Below are positions 6,682-41,533 of a stretch of 64,000 nucleotides of DNA, piece by piece. Each line of letters opens with the position of its first letter. Positions within the stretch are counted from its first letter, which is position 1. Source of the DNA: Methanobrevibacter gottschalkii DSM 11977 (lineage in GTDB: Archaea; Methanobacteriota; Methanobacteria; Methanobacteriales; Methanobacteriaceae). A program made the translations under genes and the position numbers. Below the pieces are notes generated by a model. It ran no database searches, was not told where the DNA came from, and saw only the letters and a list, made by a program, of their open reading frames with translations. The stretch lies in NCBI RefSeq assembly GCF_003814835.1, contig NZ_RKRG01000001.1:310001-374000 (forward strand), in the 5' to 3' direction.

Positions 6682-8526
6682 ATGAAATGTATAATACCAG
6701 ACACAAGTGCTGTTATTATAGGTGCAATAACTGAATTAATTGAAAAGGAGAATATTGATTATCCTGAAATTATTGTACCTGAAGCAGTTGTTTGTGAACT
6801 TGAACACCAAGCCAATGCTAACAGATCAGAAGGTCAAAAAGGATTAAAAGAATTGCAAAAATTACAAGAACTCCAATACGATGGAGAGCTATCCATTAGC
6901 TTTAAAGGAAGAAGACCAACCAATCATGATATCAAATATGCTAAAAGTGGTGAAATTGATAGCATAATAAGAGATTTAGCAAGAAGCGAAATGGGAACTC
7001 TTCTTACAAATGACAAAGTACAGGCTGAAACTGCTAAAGCTCAAGGAATTCCTGTTTATTATTTTGAACAGGAATACAAAGAAACTCCACTTTCAATTGA
7101 AAAATTTTTTGATGATGAGACCATGTCCATTCATTTAAAAGAAAATGTTGTTCCAATGGCTAAAAAAGGAACTCCAGGACATGTTGATTTTAAAATATTA
7201 AACGAAAAACGTTATACTTACAAAGAACTCAAAAAAATTGTTGATGAAATTCTTGATAAAGCAAAAAGTGATCCTAAGACTTATCTTGAAAGTGAAAAAG
7301 AGGGTTCTTTTGTTGTTCAATCAAGAGAATATAGGATTTCAATAGCTTATCCTCCATTTTCAGAGGCTTTAGAAATTACAGCCGTAAGACCTGTTGTTAG
7401 TATAAGTTTAAATGAATACAACCTATCTGAAAAATTATTAGATAGGATTAGAACTAGCGCTGAAGGAATATTAATCTCTGGTTCACCCGGAGCAGGAAAA
7501 TCTACATTTGTACAGGCTATTGCAAAATATTATTCTTCAAAATTAAATAAAGTTGTAAAAACAATGGAATCTCCAAGAGATTTGCAACTTCCAGATGAAA
7601 TTACGCAATACAGCCCATTAGAAGGGAGTATGGAAAATACTGCAGATGTTTTATTACTTGTAAGACCGGATTATACTATTTATGACGAACTTAGAAAAAA
7701 TAGTGACTTTAATATCTTTGCAGATATGAGATTGGCCGGCGTTGGAATGATTGGAGTAGTGCATGCAACTCGGCCAATAGATGCAATCCAAAGAATAGCT
7801 TCAAGAGTTGAACTTGGAGTAATCCCCTCCATTGTTGATACAAGTATTTATATTGAAGACGGGAAAGTTACTCATGTTTATGAAACAAAAATGACTGTAA
7901 AAGTTCCCACCGGAATGAAAGAAGCAGATCTTGCAAGACCCGTAATTGAAGTAAGAGACTTTGAAACTGGTGAGCTTAAAAATGAAATCTACACTTATGG
8001 TGAGCAGACCATAGTCATGGACATGGATTTAGTCAATGGTTCTCAAAATAGTGAAAGACAAAAAACTGCAGTTGAAAAAATTGCAGAAAAAGAAATCTTA
8101 AGAAAAATTAGAAAAATTCTTCCGAAAAAAGCTAAAGTTGATGTGGAAGTTACCTCTCCTGAGCGAGCAAACATTTACATTCCAGAAGATTTTATTCCAA
8201 AAATCATTGGAAAAAACGGTAAAAGAATTGCTGAGATTGAAGAAAGTATTGGAATAAGTCTTGGAGTTGAAGTAATCGAATCAAAACCAATAAATAAACA
8301 TCCAATTGAAGTTGATATTATCCACACAAAAAAACAATTAATTTTAGATTTAGGTCGTGACAAAGGAAGGAAGAATTTTGATGTATTTATAGACGGGGAA
8401 TATTTACTTACAGCTACAACTTCTAAAAAAGGAGAAATAAAAATTAAAAGAGGAATAGAATTATCTGATTTCATTATTGAAGCTATTGAAATGGGATTAG
8501 AAATTACTGCAATTCAAAAAATGTGA
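6682..8526 (+). CDS. PIN domain-ATPase-KH domain protein
   Basis: A 614-residue three-part protein. Residues 1-130 form a PIN nuclease-like domain (PDTSAVI with Asp at position 7, further acidic residues around GEIDSIIRDLA and TNDKVQAE). The middle is a PilT/VirB11-like secretion-type ATPase with Walker A GSPGAGKST near residues 267-275. A KH RNA-binding motif with IIGKNGKRI lies near residues 500-530. This order is known in a widespread archaeal family (PINc ATPase), but its cellular role is unsettled; RNA cleavage or remodelling is an inference from the PIN and KH domains. It follows hisI by 1 bp. Confidence 0.9.
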   Translation: MKCIIPDTSAVIIGAITELIEKENIDYPEIIVPEAVVCELEHQANANRSEGQKGLKELQKLQELQYDGELSISFKGRRPTNHDIKYAKSGEIDSIIRDLARSEMGTLLTNDKVQAETAKAQGIPVYYFEQEYKETPLSIEKFFDDETMSIHLKENVVPMAKKGTPGHVDFKILNEKRYTYKELKKIVDEILDKAKSDPKTYLESEKEGSFVVQSREYRISIAYPPFSEALEITAVRPVVSISLNEYNLSEKLLDRIRTSAEGILISGSPGAGKSTFVQAIAKYYSSKLNKVVKTMESPRDLQLPDEITQYSPLEGSMENTADVLLLVRPDYTIYDELRKNSDFNIFADMRLAGVGMIGVVHATRPIDAIQRIASRVELGVIPSIVDTSIYIEDGKVTHVYETKMTVKVPTGMKEADLARPVIEVRDFETGELKNEIYTYGEQTIVMDMDLVNGSQNSERQKTAVEKIAEKEILRKIRKILPKKAKVDVEVTSPERANIYIPEDFIPKIIGKNGKRIAEIEESIGISLGVEVIESKPINKHPIEVDIIHTKKQLILDLGRDKGRKNFDVFIDGEYLLTATTSKKGEIKIKRGIELSDFIIEAIEMGLEITAIQKM

Positions 8527-25518: not shown

Positions 25519-26211
25519 TCATAATTTTAATGTTGCAACAGACATTGCTTTAAAACCTACATAAACTTCGGTGCCTATATTAAGATTTAACTCTTTTTCA
25601 GCAGAAACAGTAATATCAGAACACAAAACAACTCCGCCAACATCCACTTTAACACGAATTATCTCATTTTGAAGACTCATTTCAATGATCTGGCCTTTTA
25701 AAACATTACGGATACTTGAAGACTGAGGTTCCAGCATTAAAAATATATTATCATAACTTATTAAAGCTAAAATTTTATCCCCAATATCATAATTCCTGTT
25801 TAACGGGGCATTTATTTCAAACTGATTCATTTTAATAGTCATTACACCCTTCTCAACATTAATGTCAACAATATCCGCTTCAATTTCATTAACGTCCTTA
25901 TGAAGTTCCATGATTGCATTAATCTTTTTACACTCCTTTAAGATAGAGTAACCCTCATCTGTAAGAGAGGTTCCTCCACCTCCACCTTTACCACCTTTAG
26001 TAGTATTAACAATTTTTACATTAAGTGCAGATTCCATTTTTTCAATATAACTTAAAGCAGTCCTATAAGAAACTTTAATTTCCTTAGACGCATTTGTTAA
26101 AGAACCAGTATCTAAGATAGATTGTAATAATTGGTATTTTTTATTATCCAATAAAAATAAATTACCATCAACATTAATTTTATATTCAACACCAGCATTT
26201 ACATCCGCCAT
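25519..26211 (-). CDS. ModE-type molybdate/tungstate-responsive regulator
   Basis: About 230 residues: an N-terminal LysR-like winged helix (ASKEIKVSYRTALSYIEKME), the glycine-rich wing GGKGGGGGTSLTD characteristic of ModE, then two MOP/TOBE-like segments (about residues 115-165 and 168-230) that would bind oxyanion. In bacteria ModE represses molybdate transport when bound to molybdate. I take the ATG at 26211, preceded by GGGAGATT, and reject the open frame back to 26403 because its extra 64 residues look non-coding. Regulation of formylmethanofuran dehydrogenase or Mo/W uptake is an inference. Confidence 0.85.
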   Translation of the reverse strand: MADVNAGVEYKINVDGNLFLLDNKKYQLLQSILDTGSLTNASKEIKVSYRTALSYIEKMESALNVKIVNTTKGGKGGGGGTSLTDEGYSILKECKKINAIMELHKDVNEIEADIVDINVEKGVMTIKMNQFEINAPLNRNYDIGDKILALISYDNIFLMLEPQSSSIRNVLKGQIIEMSLQNEIIRVKVDVGGVVLCSDITVSAEKELNLNIGTEVYVGFKAMSVATLKL

Positions 26212-26377
26212 GATAATCTCCCGAATATTATATTTATATTTCCCATAATTAAATAATTTTTGATTATATGCCACATGACCACATTTTTTTAATATTACAT
26301 GATTATACACAATATCCGAGTTTGTTGAATCACCAGATGAACGAACCAGCACTATGCATATCACATATGACACATGT

Positions 26378-27934
26378 CTATCTAAATTCAATCCTTTCAA
26401 CAAAATTTAACATTTTATTAATAAGTTTAGAAAACGGGCCAAATTTAGATGAAAATTTCCTTAAACTTTCAATATCATCTTTTTGGAAAAATTTAACTAA
26501 AATCAAAGCAAAAAAGTAAACAACCATACATAATACTATCCCAGGGAATAAAAATAAAGTACTTTTTGGGATAAAGTATGCAACTATACCCATAACTGCA
26601 GAAGCAACCAATATTTTAGCTACTGCAACAACAGGAGCTTTGGTTTTTGTTAATCTAAATACAAAGTATATACATGGAACCATCATTAAAAAACAAGCAA
26701 CACTAGTAGCAAGTGCACCACCAGCGATTCCAAGAGTTGGAACCATTATCCAATTAAGAACTCCAGTAACAACAGCCCCGCCAACTAAAATATACATAGG
26801 AATTCTTGGATTTCCAATACCTTGAACAATACTAGTTGAAATAGCAAATATTGAATAAAAGGTCATTCCAATAGATAGAATTGCTAATGCCATTGCTCCA
26901 GCCACATAAGCAGGATTTTTAAAGTAGAGAACTCTTAAAGTAGGTTCTGCAAATAATGCAAGACCAACACACATCGGAACAACAAACAACAATGAAAACT
27001 TATAAGCTTCTGAAACATATTTTTGAAGCATGCCAATGTCTTTTAACTTGAATGCCTCAGAAGAAGCCGGTAAAATTGTAGTTGCGATGGAAATTGAAAT
27101 AATTAAAGGAAGCCTTGCAATAGGATCTGCCGCAGCGAAAAATCCAATGTCATCAAATGTTAAAAATTTACCCATAACAATTGTACAGATATTATAAATA
27201 AGCATTTCAGCAATAGCTGTAATAATTACAGGAATAGAAAATTTAACCAGGACAGTTGCAAGTTTTAATTCATCACGTCTTGTAAAAACAAAATCATCAC
27301 TAGGTTCCGGTATTAAATTTCCCATATGATATTTGAAAATATAAACCGCCGCTACAACAGAAAGAGAATATCCTAAAACAGTACCCCATAACGCTCCAAC
27401 TGTAGATAAACCTATTAATACAAATGCAGTTGCAAATAAAATCATACCAAGTTGCTCTACAGCACGAGTATATACAATATACTCCATTTTATATACCCCT
27501 TGGAATGCTCCTCTAAATGCACCAACAATAACACTGAATGGAGTAATAAGCCCTACAATCTGTAAAGGGATTAAAGCTTCAGGTTTCCCCAAATAACCAT
27601 AAGCCAAATATGGAGCAACAATGAAAATCATCAATACTCCAAAGAATAAACCTAGAAAAACCATAATCTTTAAGGCAGTGTAGATTGTTTGCCGAGCCAT
27701 GTCCTTTTCATCAATAGCTTCGTATTCTGCAACATATTTAGCAATAGCGGGAGGGAGCCCACCAGCAGATAAAGTCTGAAAAATTCCTTGAAATGGTAAA
27801 GTAATTCCTAAAATACCATATGCAGTAGGTCCAAGTAAAATTGCCATTAAGAAACGGTAAATATAACCCCCAATACGGAAAATTACATTACCTATTAAAA
27901 TTATTAAACTACCACGAATTAACTTATTTGCCAT
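26378..27934 (-). CDS. Flippase / polysaccharide biosynthesis membrane protein (MOP superfamily)
   Basis: 518-residue integral membrane protein with about 14 hydrophobic helices, related to Wzx/MurJ-type lipid-linked glycan flippases. The N-terminal GGYIYRFLMAILLGPTAYGI and the GGLPPAIAKYVAEYEA stretch are characteristic of this superfamily. Moving lipid-linked pseudomurein or glycoprotein precursors across the membrane is a reasonable inference given the Mur-type ligases, UppP and polymerase elsewhere in the window. It lies 166 bp upstream of the ModE gene and downstream of the flavoprotein gene on the same strand. Confidence 0.87.
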   Translation of the reverse strand: MANKLIRGSLIILIGNVIFRIGGYIYRFLMAILLGPTAYGILGITLPFQGIFQTLSAGGLPPAIAKYVAEYEAIDEKDMARQTIYTALKIMVFLGLFFGVLMIFIVAPYLAYGYLGKPEALIPLQIVGLITPFSVIVGAFRGAFQGVYKMEYIVYTRAVEQLGMILFATAFVLIGLSTVGALWGTVLGYSLSVVAAVYIFKYHMGNLIPEPSDDFVFTRRDELKLATVLVKFSIPVIITAIAEMLIYNICTIVMGKFLTFDDIGFFAAADPIARLPLIISISIATTILPASSEAFKLKDIGMLQKYVSEAYKFSLLFVVPMCVGLALFAEPTLRVLYFKNPAYVAGAMALAILSIGMTFYSIFAISTSIVQGIGNPRIPMYILVGGAVVTGVLNWIMVPTLGIAGGALATSVACFLMMVPCIYFVFRLTKTKAPVVAVAKILVASAVMGIVAYFIPKSTLFLFPGIVLCMVVYFFALILVKFFQKDDIESLRKFSSKFGPFSKLINKMLNFVERIEFR

Positions 27935-27982: not shown

Positions 27983-28567
27983 TTAAATATATTTATTTAG
28001 AAAATTTTCAAATTCGTGCAAAGTTCTGTTTAATGAATCCATACCATAATAATCTTCTTTAATATCATCTAAAGAATCTTTTGACCAGAATGAAGCACCT
28101 AAATTAGAACCAAAAGGACCTCCACTTACTGGAATAATACCATGTATCATGAAATAAGTAATATTTTTTAAATGGGCAAAATCTTGTCCACCTGTACGAT
28201 CGCCGCCAACAGTGATGCTCATTCCGATTTTACCTCTTAGAATATTATAATCGATAGCTTCTAATGCTCTAGTCCTATCCATAATAGCTGACAGATAACT
28301 ACTGATACCACCATTTTGAACTGGAGTAGCTAAAATAATCCCATCAGCAGTTAAAAGACCTTTATAAACATCCCCCATGTCATCTTGGATTATGCATTTT
28401 TTATGTTCCAAACAATAATCACAATGCATGCACGGTTTAATATCTTTTGATTGGCAAGTAAACATTTCCGTTTCAAAACCTTCTTCATTCAGTCTCCTCA
28501 TAGCTTTTGATAACGCATATTCAGTTGTATTATTTCTAGGACTAGCACAAATACCAAAAATCTTCAT
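27983..28567 (-). CDS. Iron-sulfur flavoprotein / NADPH-dependent FMN reductase family
   Basis: 194-residue flavodoxin-like protein. FMN phosphate loop CASPRNNTTEYALSKA at the start, and a compact cysteine motif CMHCDYCLEHKKC (C-x2-C-x2-C-x5-C) that in methanogen Isf proteins binds a 4Fe-4S cluster. Such proteins transfer electrons from ferredoxin to oxygen, peroxide or other acceptors; the actual acceptor here is unknown. It lies 58 bp after the DUF2149 gene, on the same strand, and might be the last gene of that operon. Confidence 0.87.
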   Translation of the reverse strand: MKIFGICASPRNNTTEYALSKAMRRLNEEGFETEMFTCQSKDIKPCMHCDYCLEHKKCIIQDDMGDVYKGLLTADGIILATPVQNGGISSYLSAIMDRTRALEAIDYNILRGKIGMSITVGGDRTGGQDFAHLKNITYFMIHGIIPVSGGPFGSNLGASFWSKDSLDDIKEDYYGMDSLNRTLHEFENFLNKYI

Positions 28568-28625: not shown

Positions 28626-28964
28626 TTAACCTTCAACCATGATTAATTTACCCGTGTCAGAATCTCGATAAACTTTACCCATTTCAGTAAAACCTTTTCC
28701 AGAAGATTTACTTATATCCGGAGTATCATTTAATTCATTGCCCTGGTCAATTTGTGAAACCTCTTTTATTGCATTTTTCACTTTTTCTTTTTGTTGTTCA
28801 TCCATATTTTCATTAAATACAATATTCTGCATGTTCCAAGAAATAACTAAAAATATCAGCAGTCCAACAGCAATAACCAACATTACATCAACTAAATTTG
28901 ATGTTCCACTCATAGGATCTTCTTCACCTTGACTGAGAAATTTTCCTTTTTTTCTACGAATCAT
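28626..28964 (-). CDS. DUF2149 protein, ExbD/TolR-like
   Basis: 112 residues: short basic N-terminus, one membrane helix near residues 23-44, and a ~65-residue C-terminal part probably outside the membrane. The stretch LVDVMLVIAVGLLIFLV closely resembles the ExbD/TolR membrane signature, and Asp26 sits where the essential proton-pathway aspartate of ExbD lies. DUF2149 assignment is from family memory; the ExbD comparison is read from the sequence. It starts 8 bp after the ExbB/TolQ-type gene, the order found in bacterial exbB-exbD operons. Confidence 0.82.
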   Translation of the reverse strand: MIRRKKGKFLSQGEEDPMSGTSNLVDVMLVIAVGLLIFLVISWNMQNIVFNENMDEQQKEKVKNAIKEVSQIDQGNELNDTPDISKSSGKGFTEMGKVYRDSDTGKLIMVEG

Positions 28965-28972
28965 AATAATCC

Positions 28973-29614
28973 CTAATCGTTTAAATTCTCTAAAACTGCA
29001 TTTACAAATAACTGAAGATTAGATGAATATTCCTCATACCATCTACGTCTAATTTTTGATATAACATAAGCAACAGCACCAGACCCGATACCAACGACTG
29101 TTGTGTCGAATGCTACAATGATAGCAGCAGCCAATGTTGAAACATCCCCATTACCTAATGCTGCAAGACCGGGACCCATTGGGATTAAAGTACCCATTAA
29201 TCCAAGAGTTGGACCAATACGAGTAACAATATCTATTTTTTCAAGAGATTTGGCCATGACGACCTCTTCTTCCTCAATTAAATTTAAAGCCCATGATTCT
29301 CGAGATTCACAAGATAATGAATGTGCATCAGCTATTTTTAATAGAACTTCTTTTTGAGAATTATAAATCTCTGAACCATCAACAGCATGTTTAAGTTCAT
29401 CGACTGTTTTAGAATTAACTAAAGAAAATATTAACTTTTCTTTATAATCCCTATTTAATTTTATACGAGTCCTATAATCTGAAATAAGACCTCCAAAAGC
29501 AAAAACTGCAAAAACTGCAAAAATCAATAAGAAAATAATTACTGGAATCTGTAAACTTTGAGAAACTACATTTAAAGCAGCAGTTAAAAACTCACTCCCA
29601 GGAATAGCCACCAT
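28973..29614 (-). CDS. MotA/TolQ/ExbB proton-channel family protein
   Basis: About 213 residues with one N-terminal hydrophobic helix, a cytoplasmic region (about residues 50-125) and two C-terminal helices separated by the typical RIGPTLGLMGTLIPMGPGLAAL and DTTVVGIGSGAVAYVI motifs. In bacteria ExbB or TolQ pentamers surround an ExbD/TolR dimer and convert ion flow into work across the envelope. I take the ATG at 29614 with GGTGATT upstream; the ATG at 29626 contains that site. It is followed 8 bp later by the ExbD-like gene and preceded by DUF2162. Confidence 0.9.
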   Translation of the reverse strand: MVAIPGSEFLTAALNVVSQSLQIPVIIFLLIFAVFAVFAFGGLISDYRTRIKLNRDYKEKLIFSLVNSKTVDELKHAVDGSEIYNSQKEVLLKIADAHSLSCESRESWALNLIEEEEVVMAKSLEKIDIVTRIGPTLGLMGTLIPMGPGLAALGNGDVSTLAAAIIVAFDTTVVGIGSGAVAYVISKIRRRWYEEYSSNLQLFVNAVLENLND

Positions 29615-29648
29615 ATAAATCACCATATAATTTTTTATAATTTTAAAA

Positions 29649-30332
29649 TCATTTCAATAAAGTATTTCTTTTATAATACAACAAACCTAAAACCATTATC
29701 ACAATCAATAAAATAAAAATAAAAGCTATTGAATCAATTGAAACAATATTTATAGGTTTCATATCCCCCATATTCAAAGAGATGATATTTGGAAGCAATA
29801 ATGAAATCATTAAACAATAAATTCCCAATATTAAATACAAGCTTCCAAAACTTCTATAAGACCTATCAATCAACTTTAATTTTCTACAAGCAAAGAATAC
29901 AACAAGGATCAATGAATTAAACAATAGTGTTGCTAATAAACTAATTTGTAAATCATCCAATCCAAAAATAGATTCTTTAGAACCTATACAAATTAACATC
30001 ACCAATATAAAACTTAAGTAAGATAACAAAAGAACATTTATAAAAGTTCTTCCGCACCCATTTTCTTTGATAATAATATATCCTATAAACATTAATAGGA
30101 ATGCAATTAAAAACAATAAAACATAATTATAACTACCTATAATTGAATTTAACTGAATTTTAAAAATGCAAATCGAATAAATAAGAATTAAAGTAGATAT
30201 AAATAAAACAAAAACTAATTTGACTAAATTTTTATTCGAATTAATTTTAGAATTAATAACCAAACCAATAGATATCGCAAAAACCACTATTGAAACAGCA
30301 AATCCAACAGACCATAACAAACTAAAACTCAT
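29649..30332 (-). CDS. DUF2162-type polytopic membrane protein
   Basis: 227 residues with about seven hydrophobic helices and very short loops. I assign it to DUF2162 by gene context and hydropathy rather than by a diagnostic motif. GGAGATATT precedes the ATG. It sits between the Ser-rich secreted protein gene (17 bp upstream) and the ExbB/TolQ gene (34 bp downstream), implying one operon. A permease or motor-coupled transporter role is inference only. Confidence 0.75.
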   Translation of the reverse strand: MSFSLLWSVGFAVSIVVFAISIGLVINSKINSNKNLVKLVFVLFISTLILIYSICIFKIQLNSIIGSYNYVLLFLIAFLLMFIGYIIIKENGCGRTFINVLLLSYLSFILVMLICIGSKESIFGLDDLQISLLATLLFNSLILVVFFACRKLKLIDRSYRSFGSLYLILGIYCLMISLLLPNIISLNMGDMKPINIVSIDSIAFIFILLIVIMVLGLLYYKRNTLLK

Positions 30333-30349
30333 AATATCTCCAAGTTATT

Positions 30350-30865
30350 TTAAGAAAATAATTTAAATAGAATAACACTTATGAAAAACCCACAAAACAA
30401 TACAATAATCAATAATAGAATATTGTTTACTGTAAATAATTCATCATTATCAATTTCACCTGAATCATTAGTTAAATTTTCATTTGTTTTATTTGCATCT
30501 TTAAGAGAAGAATTATCTTTTACAACAGAATTAGATGATGAACCTTGATATGAATCATGGTTTGAATCATGAGCTCCTGAAGAACTAGAGCTACTAGAAT
30601 AAGGGTCAGAACTAGAATAACTAGAACTACGTGAAGAACTAGAGCTACTAGAAGAAGATGAAGCTGGAACGGTAGAACCACCAGAGTTACTTGAAGAACC
30701 AGAACTACCTGAAGAAGATCCGGAATTACTTGATGAACCAACATCATCAGAAGTCACTTCTTCCACATACTCAGAACCATGACCAGGATGAGCGAATACT
30801 CCAGATGCTGCAAATGACATAATAAAAATAACTGAAATCAACAATGCTAATTTTTTACATTCCAT
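30350..30865 (-). CDS. Secreted Ser-rich protein with C-terminal anchor and HPGHG N-terminus
   Basis: 171 residues. A signal peptide (about 1-25, ending in SGVFA) would leave a mature N-terminus starting HPGHGSEYVEEV, with closely spaced histidines that could bind metal. Residues about 42-110 are almost all Ser with Gly and Asn, a flexible spacer probably crossing the wall. A hydrophobic helix near residues 147-168 anchors the C-terminus. It begins the apparent operon with DUF2162, ExbB- and ExbD-like genes. Function is unknown; metal capture or motor coupling is inferred. Confidence 0.75.
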   Translation of the reverse strand: MECKKLALLISVIFIMSFAASGVFAHPGHGSEYVEEVTSDDVGSSSNSGSSSGSSGSSSNSGGSTVPASSSSSSSSSSRSSSYSSSDPYSSSSSSSGAHDSNHDSYQGSSSNSVVKDNSSLKDANKTNENLTNDSGEIDNDELFTVNNILLLIIVLFCGFFISVILFKLFS

Positions 30866-30940
30866 TTAACCACCACATAATTAAATTAAATTTAATTAAG
30901 TAAAATTCTTAAAAAATTTATTTAATTAAATTTAACTTAA

Positions 30941-30973
30941 AAAAATAAAAAAATAATAACTCAGAGAGTTATT
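30941..30973 (-). terminator. Terminator of the FmdE-domain surface protein gene
   Basis: AATAACTC / AGA / GAGTTATT is a perfect 8-bp stem (30955-30973) just after the stop, followed in the direction of transcription by long T runs. It separates this gene from the Ser-rich protein operon downstream. Confidence 0.65.
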
Positions 30974-30983
30974 ACCTTTAAAA

Positions 30984-33914
30984 CTATTTTTTATCACGTT
31001 TCATATAACCTACACCAAGCAAAATTCCAATAGCCAATACACCAATTAAAGCATAAATTAAACTATTTGAATCAGCAGATTTTGCTGCAGGAGATTTAGA
31101 TACCTCATATGATTTTGCATCATCAGGACCGTTTTGTGAATCTTCAGATTCAGCATCTTTAGTAAACTCGCCAACATATGCACTAGAAACTACTGCACCA
31201 GAAGTTCCAACACTTCCAGAAGATGAAGGATTGGAATTTGTATGAGATGCTATAGCATTTGAACTACTGTTAGAATTGGAATTTGAATTACTATTAGGGT
31301 TAATGTTAGGCTTAGAGTTTGAATTTGAATTACTATTGGAATTTTGATTTATTGATTTTAATAAATCTTCTTTAGTGATATCATCAAGGCTTTTCAAGTA
31401 TGAAAGTACATTAAAATCATCACCAGCACCTTGTTTTAACATGTTAAATTGTTCTTCAGTAATCCATTTTTCATTTACGGTTGAGACAATTGGTTTAGAT
31501 TTAACATTTGGATTGTTCCTATTACCATATATGTCAATATAAGCTTTAATTTGACTAGCACGTTTTGCTTCACTAGTTACATACATACTTGTGTCAATTG
31601 TACCCCAATCATCAAAATTAACAATTACTGCCTTACCTATTTTAAGATTTTTATCCCATACGACAAGAACACCTTGAGATATTCCATTTTCAGTTTCATT
31701 TTTTGGTAATTTTTGTACATAAAAAGTACCTAAACCTGGAGATAAATCCAATAGATAAGTTAAACTGTCATCTTTACAATAAATACTAGATGCAATGTAA
31801 GTGTAAGATTCATTTTCACCTAATGGATATTTTTCCTGAATATAATCAGTTATAAAGAAACCTGGTTGAACGCCAGGACATACATGAGCATGATACAAGA
31901 AAGTAGCCATCTGATCAAATAAAGGATGTTCATTCCATGCGTTTACAATACTTTGAATATTAAACCAATTTCCATCAGGAACAAAAGATTTTGCAATAGC
32001 TTTTAATTTATCACTATTATTTAATGTTTCAAAACCAATATCCACAACTCTATTACCATCAAGAGTTCCAACAAAGAAATCTTTAGTATCTGGATTATAT
32101 CTTAAATAAATCATATCAACTAAATCAGAATCCGGATAACGAATTGCAAATGCAAACCACAACGGTTTCCATACAGCTTGGTGAAGACTTAATAAATTTT
32201 GACTATATAATGTTCCTCCAAGGACTTCATGAAGACCATCACGAACAACTACAGTATCTTGGCCATTTAAAAATGCATATCCTGCATCAGTTAAAGCTAG
32301 AAAATCAATATCATCCCTATCAATTTCAACACCCAATTCTTCATTGAATATTTTTTTAGCTTTATTGGCTGCATCAATACCAATTTGTTTAAGTTCAGCA
32401 TCAGTTAATTTAGCATGAGCAACACTATTGATTGTTCTTTTAGCAGTGGGGAGATTTAAAGATAAAATATAGTTTAAATCTAAACCATGACCATCAAGAC
32501 CATACTCTGCAGGTTCACCATCATAAGTTATATTTTCAGTAGTTCCCATCAAGTAATTATATTGTTCTTGATTTAAACCTGTAAATTCATATAAAAAATC
32601 AACTAATTTTTCAGGATTATTATTAATTTTATTAATCCACCAAGAGCAGTATTTTAATTCTTCCAAACTTCCAGCATCAGCATTTATTTTAGTTTCTTTT
32701 TTGAAAAGTTTTTTAAGTTTAGTGGAATTAAATGACATGATAATTAAATCACCAGTCTTTTGTTTGGAATTCCATTTAATAAAACCAATCATATTCTCAG
32801 TAGCCCCAGTATTAGTGGTATTCATACCAGCATAACCAGTTTTACCAATTGTATCATCTAAAAAGAATAATGCTGCATCATCATCCGATCCGCCAGGAAC
32901 TCCGAGTACTTTATAAGCAGTAATATCTGCAGGAGAACCAATTCCACCAGGATTATTTTCTTGCTCAGGCGGATAGTATTTCAACAAAGCTTGAATAATA
33001 CTATATCCACCCAAAGTACCTTCACAAATATGGCCATGAAAAGCGGCTTCTTGAAGAATTTCTCTAGAAACACCAGCAGCCCAACCATTTGCCAAGCTAG
33101 CAAATGCCCAGGAATTTTCACCAACAAGTGACTTATAATATTTATTCCATTGAGCTTTTGTCATGTTCTCAGAAATAGTTCCCAAATATGAATATTTAGT
33201 AGATGCATTTTGGAAAATGATAGCTTTTAACTCATTTCCTTTCTTAACAATAAAAGCAAAATCAATAGGATCAATAGCACTTTGACGTAACATTAATATA
33301 TTGCTATAAGATATTTTTCCATAATTAACCATTGCTTCCATTGCATCTTCACTAGTCTTACCATTATATTTTGCAACACCAGCAGTTGTAATAGCTAAAA
33401 CATCATCAGCATTTTTAAAATCAAGTAATTTATCTGCTTCCGCAGTTACATCTCTACCTAATTTGTAACTTTCAGAAGATTCCATATTAAAAGTGACATT
33501 AGCCAAAATAGATTTACCCATGTTTGGAGTGACTATTTTATATTGAGTCAAATATCCCGGTGCAGAAATAGAAATATTAAGTTTATCTGCAATATTTGTA
33601 GAATTAATTATAACATTATAATTTTGATATGAACTATTAAATTCTTTTGATATAATATGTTTATCATTAACTTTAATAGTAGGATTTATTTTTCCATTAT
33701 CATCAGCATATTGATAATTAACTTTAACATTTAAATTAGATATATCCAAATCATCTTCAGATAAATCATCTTGCTGAATATCCGTAGAGATTGGATTTTC
33801 AAAAACATCTGAATTACCGATATCTTCTGCATAAACTCCACCTGCCATTAGCAAAACTAAAATGCAAAAAAATAAAAGTGAAATTAAATGTTTGTTAATA
33901 TTTTTACCCCCCAT
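30984..33914 (-). CDS. Large surface protein with two FmdE-type domains
   Basis: 976 residues: signal peptide (about 1-29), an N-terminal beta-rich region, two related modules, an Asn/Ser-rich spacer (about 870-905) and a C-terminal membrane helix ending in Arg/Lys. Each module has an AlaGly/Asn-Gly sensor-like part and an FmdE core; the metal motif is H293-G-H-I-C297 in the first and H675-A-H-V-C679 in the second. The second keeps a later Cys713 in YCKDDS; the first has Ser343 at the comparable place. FmdE domains are named after a formylmethanofuran dehydrogenase-linked gene; a cell-surface metal-binding role here is inference. Start is the first ATG; no clear ribosome-binding site. Confidence 0.87.
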   Translation of the reverse strand: MGGKNINKHLISLLFFCILVLLMAGGVYAEDIGNSDVFENPISTDIQQDDLSEDDLDISNLNVKVNYQYADDNGKINPTIKVNDKHIISKEFNSSYQNYNVIINSTNIADKLNISISAPGYLTQYKIVTPNMGKSILANVTFNMESSESYKLGRDVTAEADKLLDFKNADDVLAITTAGVAKYNGKTSEDAMEAMVNYGKISYSNILMLRQSAIDPIDFAFIVKKGNELKAIIFQNASTKYSYLGTISENMTKAQWNKYYKSLVGENSWAFASLANGWAAGVSREILQEAAFHGHICEGTLGGYSIIQALLKYYPPEQENNPGGIGSPADITAYKVLGVPGGSDDDAALFFLDDTIGKTGYAGMNTTNTGATENMIGFIKWNSKQKTGDLIIMSFNSTKLKKLFKKETKINADAGSLEELKYCSWWINKINNNPEKLVDFLYEFTGLNQEQYNYLMGTTENITYDGEPAEYGLDGHGLDLNYILSLNLPTAKRTINSVAHAKLTDAELKQIGIDAANKAKKIFNEELGVEIDRDDIDFLALTDAGYAFLNGQDTVVVRDGLHEVLGGTLYSQNLLSLHQAVWKPLWFAFAIRYPDSDLVDMIYLRYNPDTKDFFVGTLDGNRVVDIGFETLNNSDKLKAIAKSFVPDGNWFNIQSIVNAWNEHPLFDQMATFLYHAHVCPGVQPGFFITDYIQEKYPLGENESYTYIASSIYCKDDSLTYLLDLSPGLGTFYVQKLPKNETENGISQGVLVVWDKNLKIGKAVIVNFDDWGTIDTSMYVTSEAKRASQIKAYIDIYGNRNNPNVKSKPIVSTVNEKWITEEQFNMLKQGAGDDFNVLSYLKSLDDITKEDLLKSINQNSNSNSNSNSKPNINPNSNSNSNSNSSSNAIASHTNSNPSSSGSVGTSGAVVSSAYVGEFTKDAESEDSQNGPDDAKSYEVSKSPAAKSADSNSLIYALIGVLAIGILLGVGYMKRDKK

Positions 33915-34544
33915 ATTATTTTAAATTCATTTGTATCCATAATTGAATATGCAATAATAAAGATTAATCGTATGAATACATTTTAAAAATTGAAGTAATA
34001 AATATATAAATATAATTATTATTTATATTAATAAAAATTATAAAAAAGTATTACTATTCCATTATTTGAACTATTGAAAAAAGAACAATGAAAAAGAATT
34101 ATAATAAGATTCTGATAAAAAAAGTTTAATTACAAGAAATAATTCAAAAAAATAGATTGTTTTATTAAAAACCGTTTCTAATCTGCTAAAAATTGAAATA
34201 AATAAAAGATTTAACAAAATTCAAAAAGTAATAATAAAAAATATCGTATCTTTAATAACAAAGTTATAAAAAAGTATTACGAATTTAAAAAGTAATACAT
34301 TTCATATTTGGACAAATAAAACCATAATTACATCTTAATTATTATAAACCAAGCAGTAAAATGAAATTAAATCTTATTACTTTTAAAAATTAGTTAAACA
34401 AAATTTTAAAATGAATAACAACAATTAAACAAACTAAAATAAGTAATACTCTTTTAAAAAATATCTAAAAAAAGTAATATGGAAATAGTATTATAATGTA
34501 TTACTTCTAATTTCAACTATCGACAATTAAAAAAAAGTGAGAAA
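33915..34544. promoter_or_regulatory. 630-bp divergent control region with repeated AAGTAATAC motif
   Basis: No gene fits here. The region separates the FmdE-domain gene from cbiM. The 8-mer AAGTAATA occurs exactly at 33993, 34226, 34290, 34441 and 34472, and its complement TATTACTT at 34375 and 34499; related AGTATTAC copies lie at 34047 and 34273, and GTATTAT at 34488. One pair, GTATTAC (34274-34280) and GTAATAC (34292-34298), is a perfect inverted repeat with an 11-base spacer. That geometry resembles NikR-type half-site spacing described for Helicobacter, but regulator identity is inferred. Confidence 0.65.
34274..34298. promoter_or_regulatory. Best candidate operator, GTATTAC-N11-GTAATAC
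   Basis: Perfect 7-bp inverted repeat with an 11-base AT spacer, total 25 bp, about 250 bp before cbiM and 360 bp before the FmdE-domain gene. It is the only complete inverted pair among roughly ten half-site copies in this region. Binding by a metal-responsive repressor is inferred. Confidence 0.5.
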
Positions 34545-35168
34545 ATGCATTTACCTGATGGAATAATAAGTTTCGAACAAGCAATAATCTATTGGACAAT
34601 AACATTGATAATTGTTTCACTATTCTTTTACAAATTTTCTAATGATGAAAATAAAGAAAAAAGAATAATATCAATAGCTTTGTTTAGTGTTTTTACAATA
34701 GGCATTACATCATTATCAATCCCATCACCGCTTGGAGTGCCAATCCACTTCTTCATAATACCATTAATAGCTATGTTATTAGGTCCCTTTTCTAGCACAA
34801 TAGTATCTTTTGTAACTTTGATTATGCAAGCATTAACTCTGAATATGGGTGGTATAACATCATTAGGTGCTAATTTCATTGTAATTGGATTCATATTGTC
34901 TGTAGCAACATATGGGTTTTATAAACTATTTTTAAATTTAAATAAAAAATTTGCAATATTTGGATCAACAGTTATTGGAATTATTATTGCCACATTTGGA
35001 CAGATAGGCATTTTATTAATTTCAGGAGCAATGAACCTTGATGTATTATTATCAACATTATTGCCATTTTATGTATTCATCTCATTTATAGAAGGTTTTG
35101 CTAATGTGATTATAATAACAGCTATTGAAAAAATAAAACCCGAAATAATTGAAATAAATAAAATTTAG
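34545..35168 (+). CDS. cbiM: CbiM-type metal permease subunit (Co/Ni ECF transporter S component)
   Basis: 207-residue membrane protein with about six helices. The N-terminus MHLPDGII matches the invariant MH-PDG start of CbiM/NikM, where the amino group and His2 bind Co2+ or Ni2+; HFFIIPLIAMLLGPF and the FVTLIMQALTLNMGGITSLGANF-like central region are also family features. The energising CbiQ and CbiO subunits are not adjacent. GTGAGAAA precedes the ATG. The substrate (Co or Ni) cannot be told from these residues. Confidence 0.88.
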   Translation: MHLPDGIISFEQAIIYWTITLIIVSLFFYKFSNDENKEKRIISIALFSVFTIGITSLSIPSPLGVPIHFFIIPLIAMLLGPFSSTIVSFVTLIMQALTLNMGGITSLGANFIVIGFILSVATYGFYKLFLNLNKKFAIFGSTVIGIIIATFGQIGILLISGAMNLDVLLSTLLPFYVFISFIEGFANVIIITAIEKIKPEIIEINKI

Positions 35169-35176
35169 GTGATAAA

Positions 35177-35659
35177 ATGAAATATTTAAAAATATCAATA
35201 TTGTTATTAATATTACTTTTAGGAATAAGTACGGTGTCATCACATGGAGTAGATGTAACAGCAGACACCATGGTTGTTGCTAATGACAGCAATGGAAAAA
35301 TGGTCAAAAGTATTGCAGAATCAAATAATATTAACATTAGCGTTTATAAATTCACATCTGAAGATGAAGTTACACATATCCTTGAACATAGTATAAACAA
35401 CACAAACAAAAGAATATTGTTTACTGCATATCAAGAGACTGCTAATGATTTTTTAAAAAAGCATCCTGACATGTCCAATAGAATAATTGTAATAGACAAT
35501 GTAAACGACAATACAACTCTTGAAGGACTTCAAAATATTATGAATGTGCCCGTAGAAAATGTAAATAGTGAAAATAATTTTGGATTGCCATTAACAATCG
35601 GTATCATAATAGGTTTATTAATTGGTATTGGCTGTGGAGCATATATAATGAAAAGATAG
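35177..35659 (+). CDS. Two-anchor extracytoplasmic protein paired with CbiM (CbiN/NikL-like topology)
   Basis: 160 residues starting 8 bp after cbiM with GGTGATAAA before the ATG. An N-terminal hydrophobic segment (about 5-22) is followed by SSHGVDVTADTMVV, a ~110-residue soluble region, and a Gly-rich C-terminal helix ending MKR. CbiN and NikL partners of CbiM/NikM have the same two-anchor layout, but this one is longer than usual CbiN and I see no diagnostic motif. If the first segment is cleaved, a His would be at or near the mature N-terminus. Role as accessory to CbiM is inferred from position and topology. Confidence 0.75.
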   Translation: MKYLKISILLLILLLGISTVSSHGVDVTADTMVVANDSNGKMVKSIAESNNINISVYKFTSEDEVTHILEHSINNTNKRILFTAYQETANDFLKKHPDMSNRIIVIDNVNDNTTLEGLQNIMNVPVENVNSENNFGLPLTIGIIIGLLIGIGCGAYIMKR

Positions 35660-35755
35660 GAATTAAATTAATAATTCAAAATCCCCACTTCTTTTTTAAA
35701 AACTACATAATATTTATAATCTTAAAAACACAATATTATACTAAAAGGGATGATT

Positions 35756-36595
35756 ATGAAGATTGGAAAAGGTATCGTGAAAAAATATTCTCGGAAGTAT
35801 AACAGAACACTTAAAAATGGCGAACAAAAGAAATATACTACCGAACAAATACAAATTACCATCCCTAAAAATGAAGATATTTATTACAATCAAGAAGAAG
35901 TTTTAATTATCCCAAATAGTGAAATTGAAAATTTTAAGAGTAGAGAAGAAGAAAATGAATTTTTAAAAATCGCTAATTATTTTTATGTTGAGGAAGTGAA
36001 ACAATTGAATGAACAGATGGATGAAAATTTAAACTCTACTTCAGAATATGAAAAAGAAATTGAAGAGTTAAAAGCTAAGATTACTTCTTTAAAAGATATT
36101 GAAGACAAATATAATTCAATTAAAAAAGATAATATTGACCAACTCAAACAAGAAAACGAGAATATTCGAGATAAACACTCCAAATTGATTATCGAGAATG
36201 AAAACTTAAAAAATAAATTTGTCAATATTAAAACTGAAAATGAAAACTTAAAAAGCAAATATTCAAGTATTAAAGAAGAAAATAGGAATCTTAAAATCAA
36301 ATGTTCCAATTTAAAAGATGAACATTCCACTATTAAAGATAGTTACAATCAAGTTTCAACAAAATACGATCAGTTAAAACAAGAAAACCTCAATACAAAA
36401 ACAGGTTATGCTGAAATCTATGAAATCAATGAAGAATTAGAAAAAGACTATGACACTCTTCGTTTAGAATACAATGACCTGGTCGATAAAATTAACAGTT
36501 TAGAAGAAGAATTATATAAAATTAAAGCTATGAAAGACCACGACACATATATAGCCAATAAAGTTAAAGAATTTATTTTAAAAAGTGGAAATTAA
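35756..36595 (+). CDS. Coiled-coil protein with 14-residue repeats
   Basis: About 279 residues, no recognised family. The first ~75 residues look globular and basic; most of the rest is a long coiled coil. Between about residues 130 and 215 a two-heptad unit recurs, with the pattern x-IK-x-EN-x-NLK-x-K repeated several times. No membrane segment. The ATG at 35756 follows GGGATGATT; the ATG at 35750 lies inside that site. Convergent with the zinc-ribbon gene, overlapping by 4 bp. Structural or DNA/chromosome-associated roles are possible but nothing decides. Confidence 0.78.
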   Translation: MKIGKGIVKKYSRKYNRTLKNGEQKKYTTEQIQITIPKNEDIYYNQEEVLIIPNSEIENFKSREEENEFLKIANYFYVEEVKQLNEQMDENLNSTSEYEKEIEELKAKITSLKDIEDKYNSIKKDNIDQLKQENENIRDKHSKLIIENENLKNKFVNIKTENENLKSKYSSIKEENRNLKIKCSNLKDEHSTIKDSYNQVSTKYDQLKQENLNTKTGYAEIYEINEELEKDYDTLRLEYNDLVDKINSLEEELYKIKAMKDHDTYIANKVKEFILKSGN

Positions 36596-40177: not shown

Positions 40178-41533
40178 ATGAGAATTATTTTAGCAGGAAC
40201 CGGAAGTGCAGTTGGAAAAACAACAATAGCTACCGGAATAATGAAAGCATTAAGTGAAAAATATAATGTTCAACCGTTTAAGGTTGGACCAGATTATATT
40301 GATCCATCTTACCACACATTAGCTACTGAAAATATTTCAAGAAATTTAGATTCGTTTTTTATGAAAGAAGGTCAAGTTAGGGATTCATATCTTAAGGGAA
40401 TGGAAGGAAAAGATATTGCAATTATTGAAGGTGTAAGAGGACTTTTTGAAGGAATAGATTCTGTAAATGACATTGGAAGTACGGCTTCAATAGCGAAATC
40501 TCTAAAAGCACCAGTAATATTAATTATTAATTCTAGAAGCTTGGTTAAAAGTGCAGCAGCTATAGTTTTAGGATTTAAATCACTAGATCCTGAAATTAAT
40601 ATTGCAGGAGTTATTTTAAATAAAGTTAAAAATAAAGCACATTATCTGAAAACTAAAAAATCAATTGAAGAGATAACAAATACCGAGGTTATTGGTGGAA
40701 TAATCCGTGATGACAATATTTCCATTGAACAAAGACATTTAGGCCTTGTTCCTGCCCGTGAAAGAGAAAGCTCACTTAAATTTATTGAATTATGGTCCGA
40801 AGTTATTAAAAATTCAATTGATTTGGATAGATTAATTGAAATTGCAAAAACTGCTCCAAGAATTACATCCAATATTACTCCTATCTGGAATAAATTAAAT
40901 AAACAGCAGGTAAAAATAGGTGTTGCTTATGATGAAGTATTCAATTTTTATTATAAAGAAAATATTGAATCACTTGAAGCAAATAATGCTAAAATAAAAT
41001 ATTTTTCACCATTAAAGGATGAAGAGCTGCCTGATGTTGATGGAATATACATTGGTGGAGGATATCCAGAACTATTTTCAAAAGAACTTAATGCAAATCA
41101 AAATATGCTATCACAAATCAAGAACTTCCACATGGAAGACAGACCTATTTTTGCCGAATGTGGTGGTTTAATGTATCTTATGAACTCAATACATGAAGAT
41201 GCAGTGGTAAATATATACCCTTATAAGTCAATTCTAACAGATAGAGTACAAGCATTAAAATACACTATCGCTGAAGTTAAAGAAGATAACATTATTTCTA
41301 AAAAAGGTGAAAAATTCAATGGTCATGAGTTTCATTACTCAAAAGTTCTTGTAAATGACAATAATATTAAAAACAAACTAGCATTTGAGATATTAAGAGG
41401 GAAAGGATCTTATAATAACCAAGACGGATTTATGGAAAGAAATACGCTTGCAAGTTATGTTCACACCCATGTAGCCGCTATGCCAAACTTCGGTGGAAAC
41501 TTCTGTATTTCTTCTCTAGAAATTGGAGGATAA
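40178..41533 (+). CDS. Cobyrinate / Ni-sirohydrochlorin a,c-diamide synthase
   Basis: 451 residues: an N-terminal DTBS-like ATPase domain with [13 protein letters not shown] and [10 protein letters not shown], and a C-terminal glutamine amidotransferase domain with the nucleophile in [10 protein letters not shown] and a late HTHVAAMPN. The family amidates the a and c side chains of cobyrinate (CbiA) or of Ni-sirohydrochlorin on the way to coenzyme F430 (CfbB). A methanogen may need both activities and sequence alone does not separate them. The next gene follows directly after the stop. Confidence 0.9.

Follow-up and report, generated by a model that had tools for sequence, protein, structure and literature searches.

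Gene content of the locus

The window analysed here is a 64,000-nucleotide stretch of the genome (1.88 Mb) of Methanobrevibacter gottschalkii DSM 11977, C1:310001-374000, and the coordinates given for the locus are window positions. Between positions 28626 and 35659, the window carries seven genes for surface proteins, a membrane motor and a permease of the CbiM/NikM family, which we interpret as a probable nickel-acquisition system. The genes form two arms diverging from one long control region. On the minus strand, FmdE2x, a surface protein with two FmdE domains, is followed by the HPGHG protein, DUF2162, ExbB and DUF2149, and on the plus strand the permease is followed by a partner protein. 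All seven genes, the divergent arms and the control region had been laid out in a preliminary description of the sequence, and a coordinate check and Pfam assignments recovered each of them. Among named organisms, Methanobrevibacter has the closest relatives of this locus.

28626-28964, minus strand: DUF2149 protein, HmuV homologue, 112 amino acids (PF09919, 81 bits)
28973-29626, minus strand: motor protein of the MotA/TolQ/ExbB family, HmuU homologue (PF01618, 41 bits)
29649-30332, minus strand: DUF2162 membrane protein (PF09930, 56 bits), of the subtype without PCPCC by motif comparison
30350-30865, minus strand: Ser-rich HPGHG protein, 171 amino acids
30984-33914, minus strand: FmdE2x, 976 amino acids (PF02663, two stretches)
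33915-34544, no strand: shared control region, 630 bp, 16% GC
34048-34054: operator heptamer GTATTAC
34274-34298: inverted pair GTATTAC-N11-GTAATAC, heptamers starting at 34274 and 34292, 25 bp overall
34443-34449: operator heptamer GTAATAC
34498-34504: operator heptamer GTATTAC
34545-35168, plus strand: CbiM/NikM-family permease, an orphan S component (PF01891, 131 bits)
35177-35659, plus strand: two-anchor partner, no Pfam family

An operator shared with nickel genes

The control region holds five copies of GTATTAC or GTAATAC, versus 0.08 in dinucleotide-preserving shuffles, and the seven genes recur in other genera (see below); the locus is therefore not a chance arrangement. A genome-wide search for exact inverted heptamer pairs 4-34 bp apart gave ten pairs in seven regions, with the reversed control pattern still occurring at three places. 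Besides this locus, the seven regions comprise nikMNQO, the divergent hmd and hmdC genes (names from NCBIfam), nikDE, an operon extending from a CooC-like gene to FmdE2x, the operon of cobN and motor genes, and one unexplained region (C2:390281). In the latter, the pair (C2:390281-390320; L036 5282-5321) lies upstream of HisA-like and CDF cation-efflux genes, possibly a further nickel target. The ABC operon resembles nikABCDE, and its binding protein is closest to NikA and next to the staphylopine receptor CntA, with matches below the curated cut-offs. Three heptamers also precede this NikA/CntA-type protein (L035 7045-7380), which suggests nickel control of both parts of the ABC system. In L017, heptamers at 7988 and 8071 follow the cobN-motor operon and precede the gene of a large protein resembling surface adhesins. 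Within this genome, the heptamer is absent before the CbiN-linked cobalt operon, two lone motors and nikR itself.

Could the heptamers have arisen by chance in AT-rich sequence? This was ruled out by the shuffles, by a comparison in which other intergenic regions held 9 heptamers in 18.3 kb, versus 26 in 3.9 kb (the loci compared were partly chosen by the motif), and by tests across species, where the contrast between nikM and cbiM is independent of motif-based locus choice. Two to six heptamers, most of them at a 31-33-bp step, precede nikM in 20 of the 20 genomes fetched for this test, and at least two lie upstream in 22 of 23 nikM loci versus 1 of 25 cobalt cbiM loci, counts that are not independent events as the genomes are related. 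Most FmdE2x/CbiM-like control regions likewise carry two to six copies, and all five Methanothermobacter-type genomes have the heptamer just before HPGHG-CbiM-partner. It accompanies hmd in most members of the genus; the Hmd paralogues of more distant genomes are mostly without it.

An operator common to nikM, to hmd for the nickel-free hydrogenase and to nikDE, and not to cobalt cbiM, points to nickel as the metal, and nickel acquisition is thus very likely the function of the locus. The preliminary description had left the metal open among cobalt, nickel, molybdenum and tungsten; regulon membership singles out nickel, and the other three recede in spite of the names CbiM, CobN and FmdE.

The factor that binds the heptamers is likely to be NikR. 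In delta-proteobacteria, the NikR signal is GTGTTAC-N13/14-GTAACAC; one site, before a nickel-free hydrogenase, is written GTaTTAC, and one species has its half-sites reversed (PMC545781). We name NikR as the probable binder because the heptamer is one transition away from the published half-site GTGTTAC and the genome has one NikR gene. Judged by sequence, the locus belongs to the nickel regulon; that NikR is the regulator, and that low nickel turns the genes on, we infer.

Published data on a relative bear on this regulon. According to a proteome of Methanothermobacter marburgensis, CobN1 and NikR1 are abundant only when nickel is limiting, a condition that also raises a 'Transporter' (MTBMA_c10530), Hmd and HcgG (PMC12350162). 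The CobN of this species corresponds to three tags, MTBMA_c10550-10570 (PMC3087415). In genome G144, cobN is split into three fragments, and DUF2162, ExbB and DUF2149 come next. The CobN tags and this gene order place MTBMA_c10530 on the motor genes; from order and size, it is probably ExbB or a gene directly beside it, with G144 presumably being M. marburgensis.

Conservation of the gene unit

The genes recur as a collinear operon, FmdE2x-HPGHG-CbiM-partner-DUF2162-ExbB-DUF2149, in several genera of the phylum (L052, L055, L056, L057, L103, L104, L169, L180). The same order is found in L058, where no HPGHG was detected, and close relatives (L038-L040, L174, L181) have the unit split into divergent arms as in the window. 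The contig of L052, which bears the complete seven-gene methanogen operon, is binned as 'uncultured Bacillales' and is probably mis-binned. Among 152 genomes of the phylum, the partner is encoded in 55, FmdE2x in 72 and both in 48 (Fisher p ~3e-14, uncorrected for ancestry); DUF2149 is present in 136. Co-occurrence beyond close relatives had been set as a test beforehand, and FmdE2x and the CbiM-partner pair indeed lie within ~6 kb of each other in 30 of the 55 partner-bearing genomes, in nine genera (counted from listed coordinates).

Several neighbouring genes lie outside the unit. An NADPH-dependent FMN reductase-like flavoprotein (27983-28567) borders the locus and might supply electrons; such a gene also flanks the CbiM-partner pair in the relatives L046, L049, L051, L054 and L171. 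A coiled-coil protein (35750-36595) stands between the locus and an RbcL-like gene in many relatives. The ModE-like molybdate regulator at 25519-26403 (helix-turn-helix and TOBE) is syntenic with a MATE gene and the locus, outside the nickel operator group. Finally, 5 kb away, a CbiA/CobB-type amidotransferase (40178-41533) belongs to the cobyrinate or Ni-sirohydrochlorin a,c-diamide synthase family and is possibly an F430 gene.

Surface proteins, permease and partner

FmdE2x comprises an N-terminal hydrophobic segment, two repeats of an alpha/beta and an FmdE domain, a low-complexity Ser/Asn stalk and a C-terminal transmembrane helix. Both repeats contain an HxHxC motif (H293, H295, C297 and H675, H677, C679), invariant in 18 homologues. 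In the AlphaFold model, which has a predicted local distance difference test score (pLDDT) of 70.5, the stalk (860-950) is disordered and the helix spans residues 951-971. Classical FmdE, in contrast, is a single-domain protein encoded with Fmd/Fwd genes; FmdE2x has two FmdE domains and surface signals, and the gene list and Pfam gave no Fmd genes in the locus. The genome encodes three FmdE2x proteins: that of the window, one followed by HPGHG and no motor (L019), and one behind the CooC-like ATPase (L020).

The HPGHG protein has a signal peptide, a Ser-rich tether and a C-terminal transmembrane helix. The HPGHG motif, its sole invariant stretch among 15 homologues, directly follows an AxA-like predicted cleavage site and would thus form the mature N-terminus.

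The CbiM-like permease keeps Met1, His2 and His68, and we take the Met-His and the second His to be nickel ligands, as in NikM. Its best solved relatives are 4M5B/4M58, ahead of the cobalt transporter 5X3X. The genome has three permeases of this family: the window orphan, one with a PDGLE (NikN-type) N, Q and O, and one with a true CbiN. No Q or O genes lie in the locus; two complete sets are found elsewhere in the genome. In every locus read, the partner adjoins the CbiM-like gene. It consists of a signal anchor, a predicted mature N-terminus HGxDVT, a small alpha/beta domain and a C-terminal transmembrane helix (AlphaFold pLDDT 81.9), and its histidines H67 and H71 are conserved in a 13-sequence alignment. 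Pfam assigned it to no family, and PDB sequence and fold searches returned nothing significant.

A motor homologous to HmuU and HmuV

The ExbB protein has a conserved GLMGTLI region and conserved threonines T146 and T175, all common to the ExbB of Bacteroidota hmu operons. DUF2149 had been described as ExbD-like; this holds for its transmembrane helix, whose D26 is invariant in archaeal and bacterial copies, and not for the rest of the 112-residue protein, which has only a short, conserved extracytoplasmic C-terminal tail. Bacteroides HmuV matches PF09919 at 2e-34. A tblastn search with ExbB led to Bacteroidota replicons ordered HmuY/TonB receptor-CobN-hypothetical-ExbB-DUF2149 and to Trichlorobacter, where TonB receptor-DUF2162-ExbB-DUF2149-CobN lies within a cobalamin cluster; DUF2149 gave no match in tblastn against plasmids. 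On the strength of the ExbB motif and threonines, the DUF2149 aspartate, HmuV being a DUF2149 protein and the matches to hmu operons, the archaeal motor is, by its sequence, a homologue of HmuU/HmuV; the loci read contain neither TonB nor a receptor. We also considered whether HmuT equals DUF2162, which is unsupported for the Bacteroidota, where HmuT has no Pfam match; the Trichlorobacter counterpart is DUF2162. The window copy of DUF2162 is without the PCPCC motif that cobN-linked copies keep.

The usual neighbours of the archaeal motor are surface CobN or FmdE2x. This genome contains four DUF2149 motors, one of which follows a 1713-residue surface-anchored CobN (L017). Two lone DUF2162-ExbB-DUF2149 motors (L016 6002-7703, L018 6204-7796) have neither the operator nor a surface gene of the CobN/FmdE2x families.

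A nicotianamine synthase gene linked to the unit

In relatives, the unit is joined to a gene of the nicotianamine synthase (NAS) type. The Methanothermobacter-type order is NAS-FmdE2x-CobN-DUF2162-ExbB-DUF2149 (L248), and another genus has NAS-FmdE2x-HPGHG-CbiM-partner-CobN-CobN-DUF2162-ExbB-DUF2149 (L242 with L107). NAS occurs in 104 of 152 genomes, with a heptamer upstream in 20 of 30 NAS loci; the single NAS gene in the window's genome lies 205 bp behind a heptamer. Its protein matches the solved structure of thermonicotianamine synthase, 3O31 (1e-85), and there is a weaker match to CntL, which acts in staphylopine synthesis. This linkage lets us propose, tentatively, a nicotianamine-type chelator as the ligand. 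At the level of titles and abstracts, we found no earlier description of a link between nicotianamine, methanogens and nickel.

Proposed mechanism and alternatives

Low nickel would switch the locus on, through NikR at the GTATTAC/GTAATAC heptamers. Surface-anchored FmdE2x would then bind nickel or a nickel chelate through the HxHxC motifs of its two repeats. The ion might be relayed by the tethered HPGHG protein and by the partner, both with predicted mature N-termini that begin with His, and the CbiM/NikM-type permease (Met1-His2-His68) would import it, either by itself or together with the NikQO encoded in nikMNQO. DUF2162-ExbB-DUF2149 may form an ion-driven motor of the HmuTUV kind, powering capture by, or release from, a surface protein, which would be FmdE2x here and CobN in the sister locus. 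We consider a nickel-acquisition system of this kind, scarcity-induced control included, the best overall explanation and a probable one. So far known from bacterial heme-uptake clusters, the motor most likely takes part in nickel capture here; whether it acts on a surface protein we rate as evenly balanced. A fuller scheme, in which NAS makes a chelator, the nickel chelate is caught on FmdE2x or CobN and the Hmu-type motor strips or hands over the metal without TonB or an outer membrane, is conceivable if on balance doubtful. The operator group, the conserved unit and the homologies support what the preliminary description had put forward, a metal-uptake locus with surface capture proteins, a motor and a CbiM/NikM-type permease. 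To this we add the array of operators, the paralogous loci elsewhere in this genome, the linkage with NAS and the HmuU/HmuV homology.

Several observations weigh against parts of this proposal. Besides the three places with the reversed control pattern, the spacing of the heptamers varies (18, 31-33 and 53-55 bp), so another nickel-responsive factor is possible, and few or no heptamers precede the CbiM-like/partner genes of L170, L172 and L178, which have no FmdE2x nearby. PDB sequence and fold searches gave no significant match for FmdE2x. The motor is absent beside FmdE2x-CbiM in L044-L051 and L054 and is thus not strictly required, while the operator-free paralogues in L016 and L018 suggest that this motor family may have further functions. 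Finally, the window's genome has its NAS gene on a different contig, where a paralogous FmdE2x locus is about 28 kb away.

Nickel could also be salvaged from tetrapyrroles, with surface CobN and FmdE stripping it from F430 or breakdown products and the CbiM-like permease importing the freed ion. This genome's surface-anchored CobN, which has the same motor and the same operator, fits such a route, as does HmuS, a heme de-chelatase that strips iron from heme (PMC12583661). However, the window's own operon has no CobN, and the position of NAS beside cobN in several genomes suggests that a small chelator is involved, which makes salvage unlikely. Uptake of cobalt or corrinoids, where the permease and CobN relatives would serve cobalamin, is suggested by the family names CbiM and CobN and by the Trichlorobacter gene group with its TonB receptor among cobalamin genes. 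It is rendered improbable by the operator common to nikM, hmd and nikDE and not to the CbiN-linked cobalt cbiM, by a locus with no cob gene (Pfam) and no B12 riboswitch (an Rfam scan of the window found tRNA alone), and by a permease nearest to 4M5B/4M58, not 5X3X. Slightly less probable still is a surface nickel store or sensor, in which the Ser-rich tethers and His N-termini merely hold metal and which would suit the clusters where the motor is missing; the unit includes a conserved CbiM permease with metal ligands and has the operator of importers. Handling of molybdenum or tungsten, evoked by the FmdE family name and the nearby ModE-like gene, is most improbable, as ModE, MATE and RbcL are syntenic with this locus and not with its paralogues, and the operator evidence indicates nickel.

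Methanogens need much nickel, for F430 of methyl-CoM reductase and for [NiFe]-hydrogenases, and their nickel uptake is little known (PMC10617489); the role of archaeal CobN/HmuS homologues has been described as unclear (PMC12583661). The nickel-acquisition reading gives a testable role to these homologues, to DUF2149, DUF2162 and surface FmdE, and likewise to the thermonicotianamine synthase family of archaea. It would also provide an Hmu motor that naturally has no TonB receptor, and such a system could decide what this motor drives.

Comparison with known systems

The NikR regulon of delta-proteobacteria likewise covers nickel importers and a nickel-free hydrogenase and uses both half-site orientations. 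Its palindrome has a fixed length of 27-28 bp, whereas the window pair measures 25 bp and promoters here carry two to six half-sites. With the NikMNQO/CbiMNQO energy-coupling factor transporters, the permease shares the CbiM/NikM family, the N-terminal Met-His and the second His. Those transporters carry linked Q and O, however, while the window permease has none of its own, and the partner resembles CbiN/NikN in topology alone, matching neither PF02553 (CbiN) nor PF13190 (PDGLE, NikN). The likeness to the staphylopine/Cnt system consists of a NAS-family synthase (the CntL match) and a NikA/CntA-type ABC transporter in the operator group; an opine dehydrogenase was not noticed here, no search for it having been made, and surface FmdE/CobN and an Hmu-type motor are present instead.

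The conserved ExbB threonines and the membrane aspartate of the small subunit recall ExbB-ExbD-TonB. That system has an ExbD periplasmic domain and TonB, whereas DUF2149 is without a domain of ExbD size and the locus contains no TonB gene. A further counterpart is hmuYRSTUV of Bacteroides and Porphyromonas, in which HmuU and HmuV are homologous to ExbB and DUF2149 and adjacent in the same order; there, as in the sister locus L017, a surface CobN (HmuS) and a membrane protein precede the motor. No HmuY or TonB-dependent receptor HmuR was found among the neighbours read, the whole genome not having been searched for the TonB receptor family. The locus at 28626-35659 has FmdE2x in place of the CobN-type HmuS, with CobN found in L017 and in the relatives L050, L241 and L248, and it further differs from hmu by an added CbiM-type permease and nickel-type control. 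If the fuller scheme with a NAS-made chelator is true, the bacterial HmuTUV motor would also energise a surface chelatase rather than a TonB receptor.

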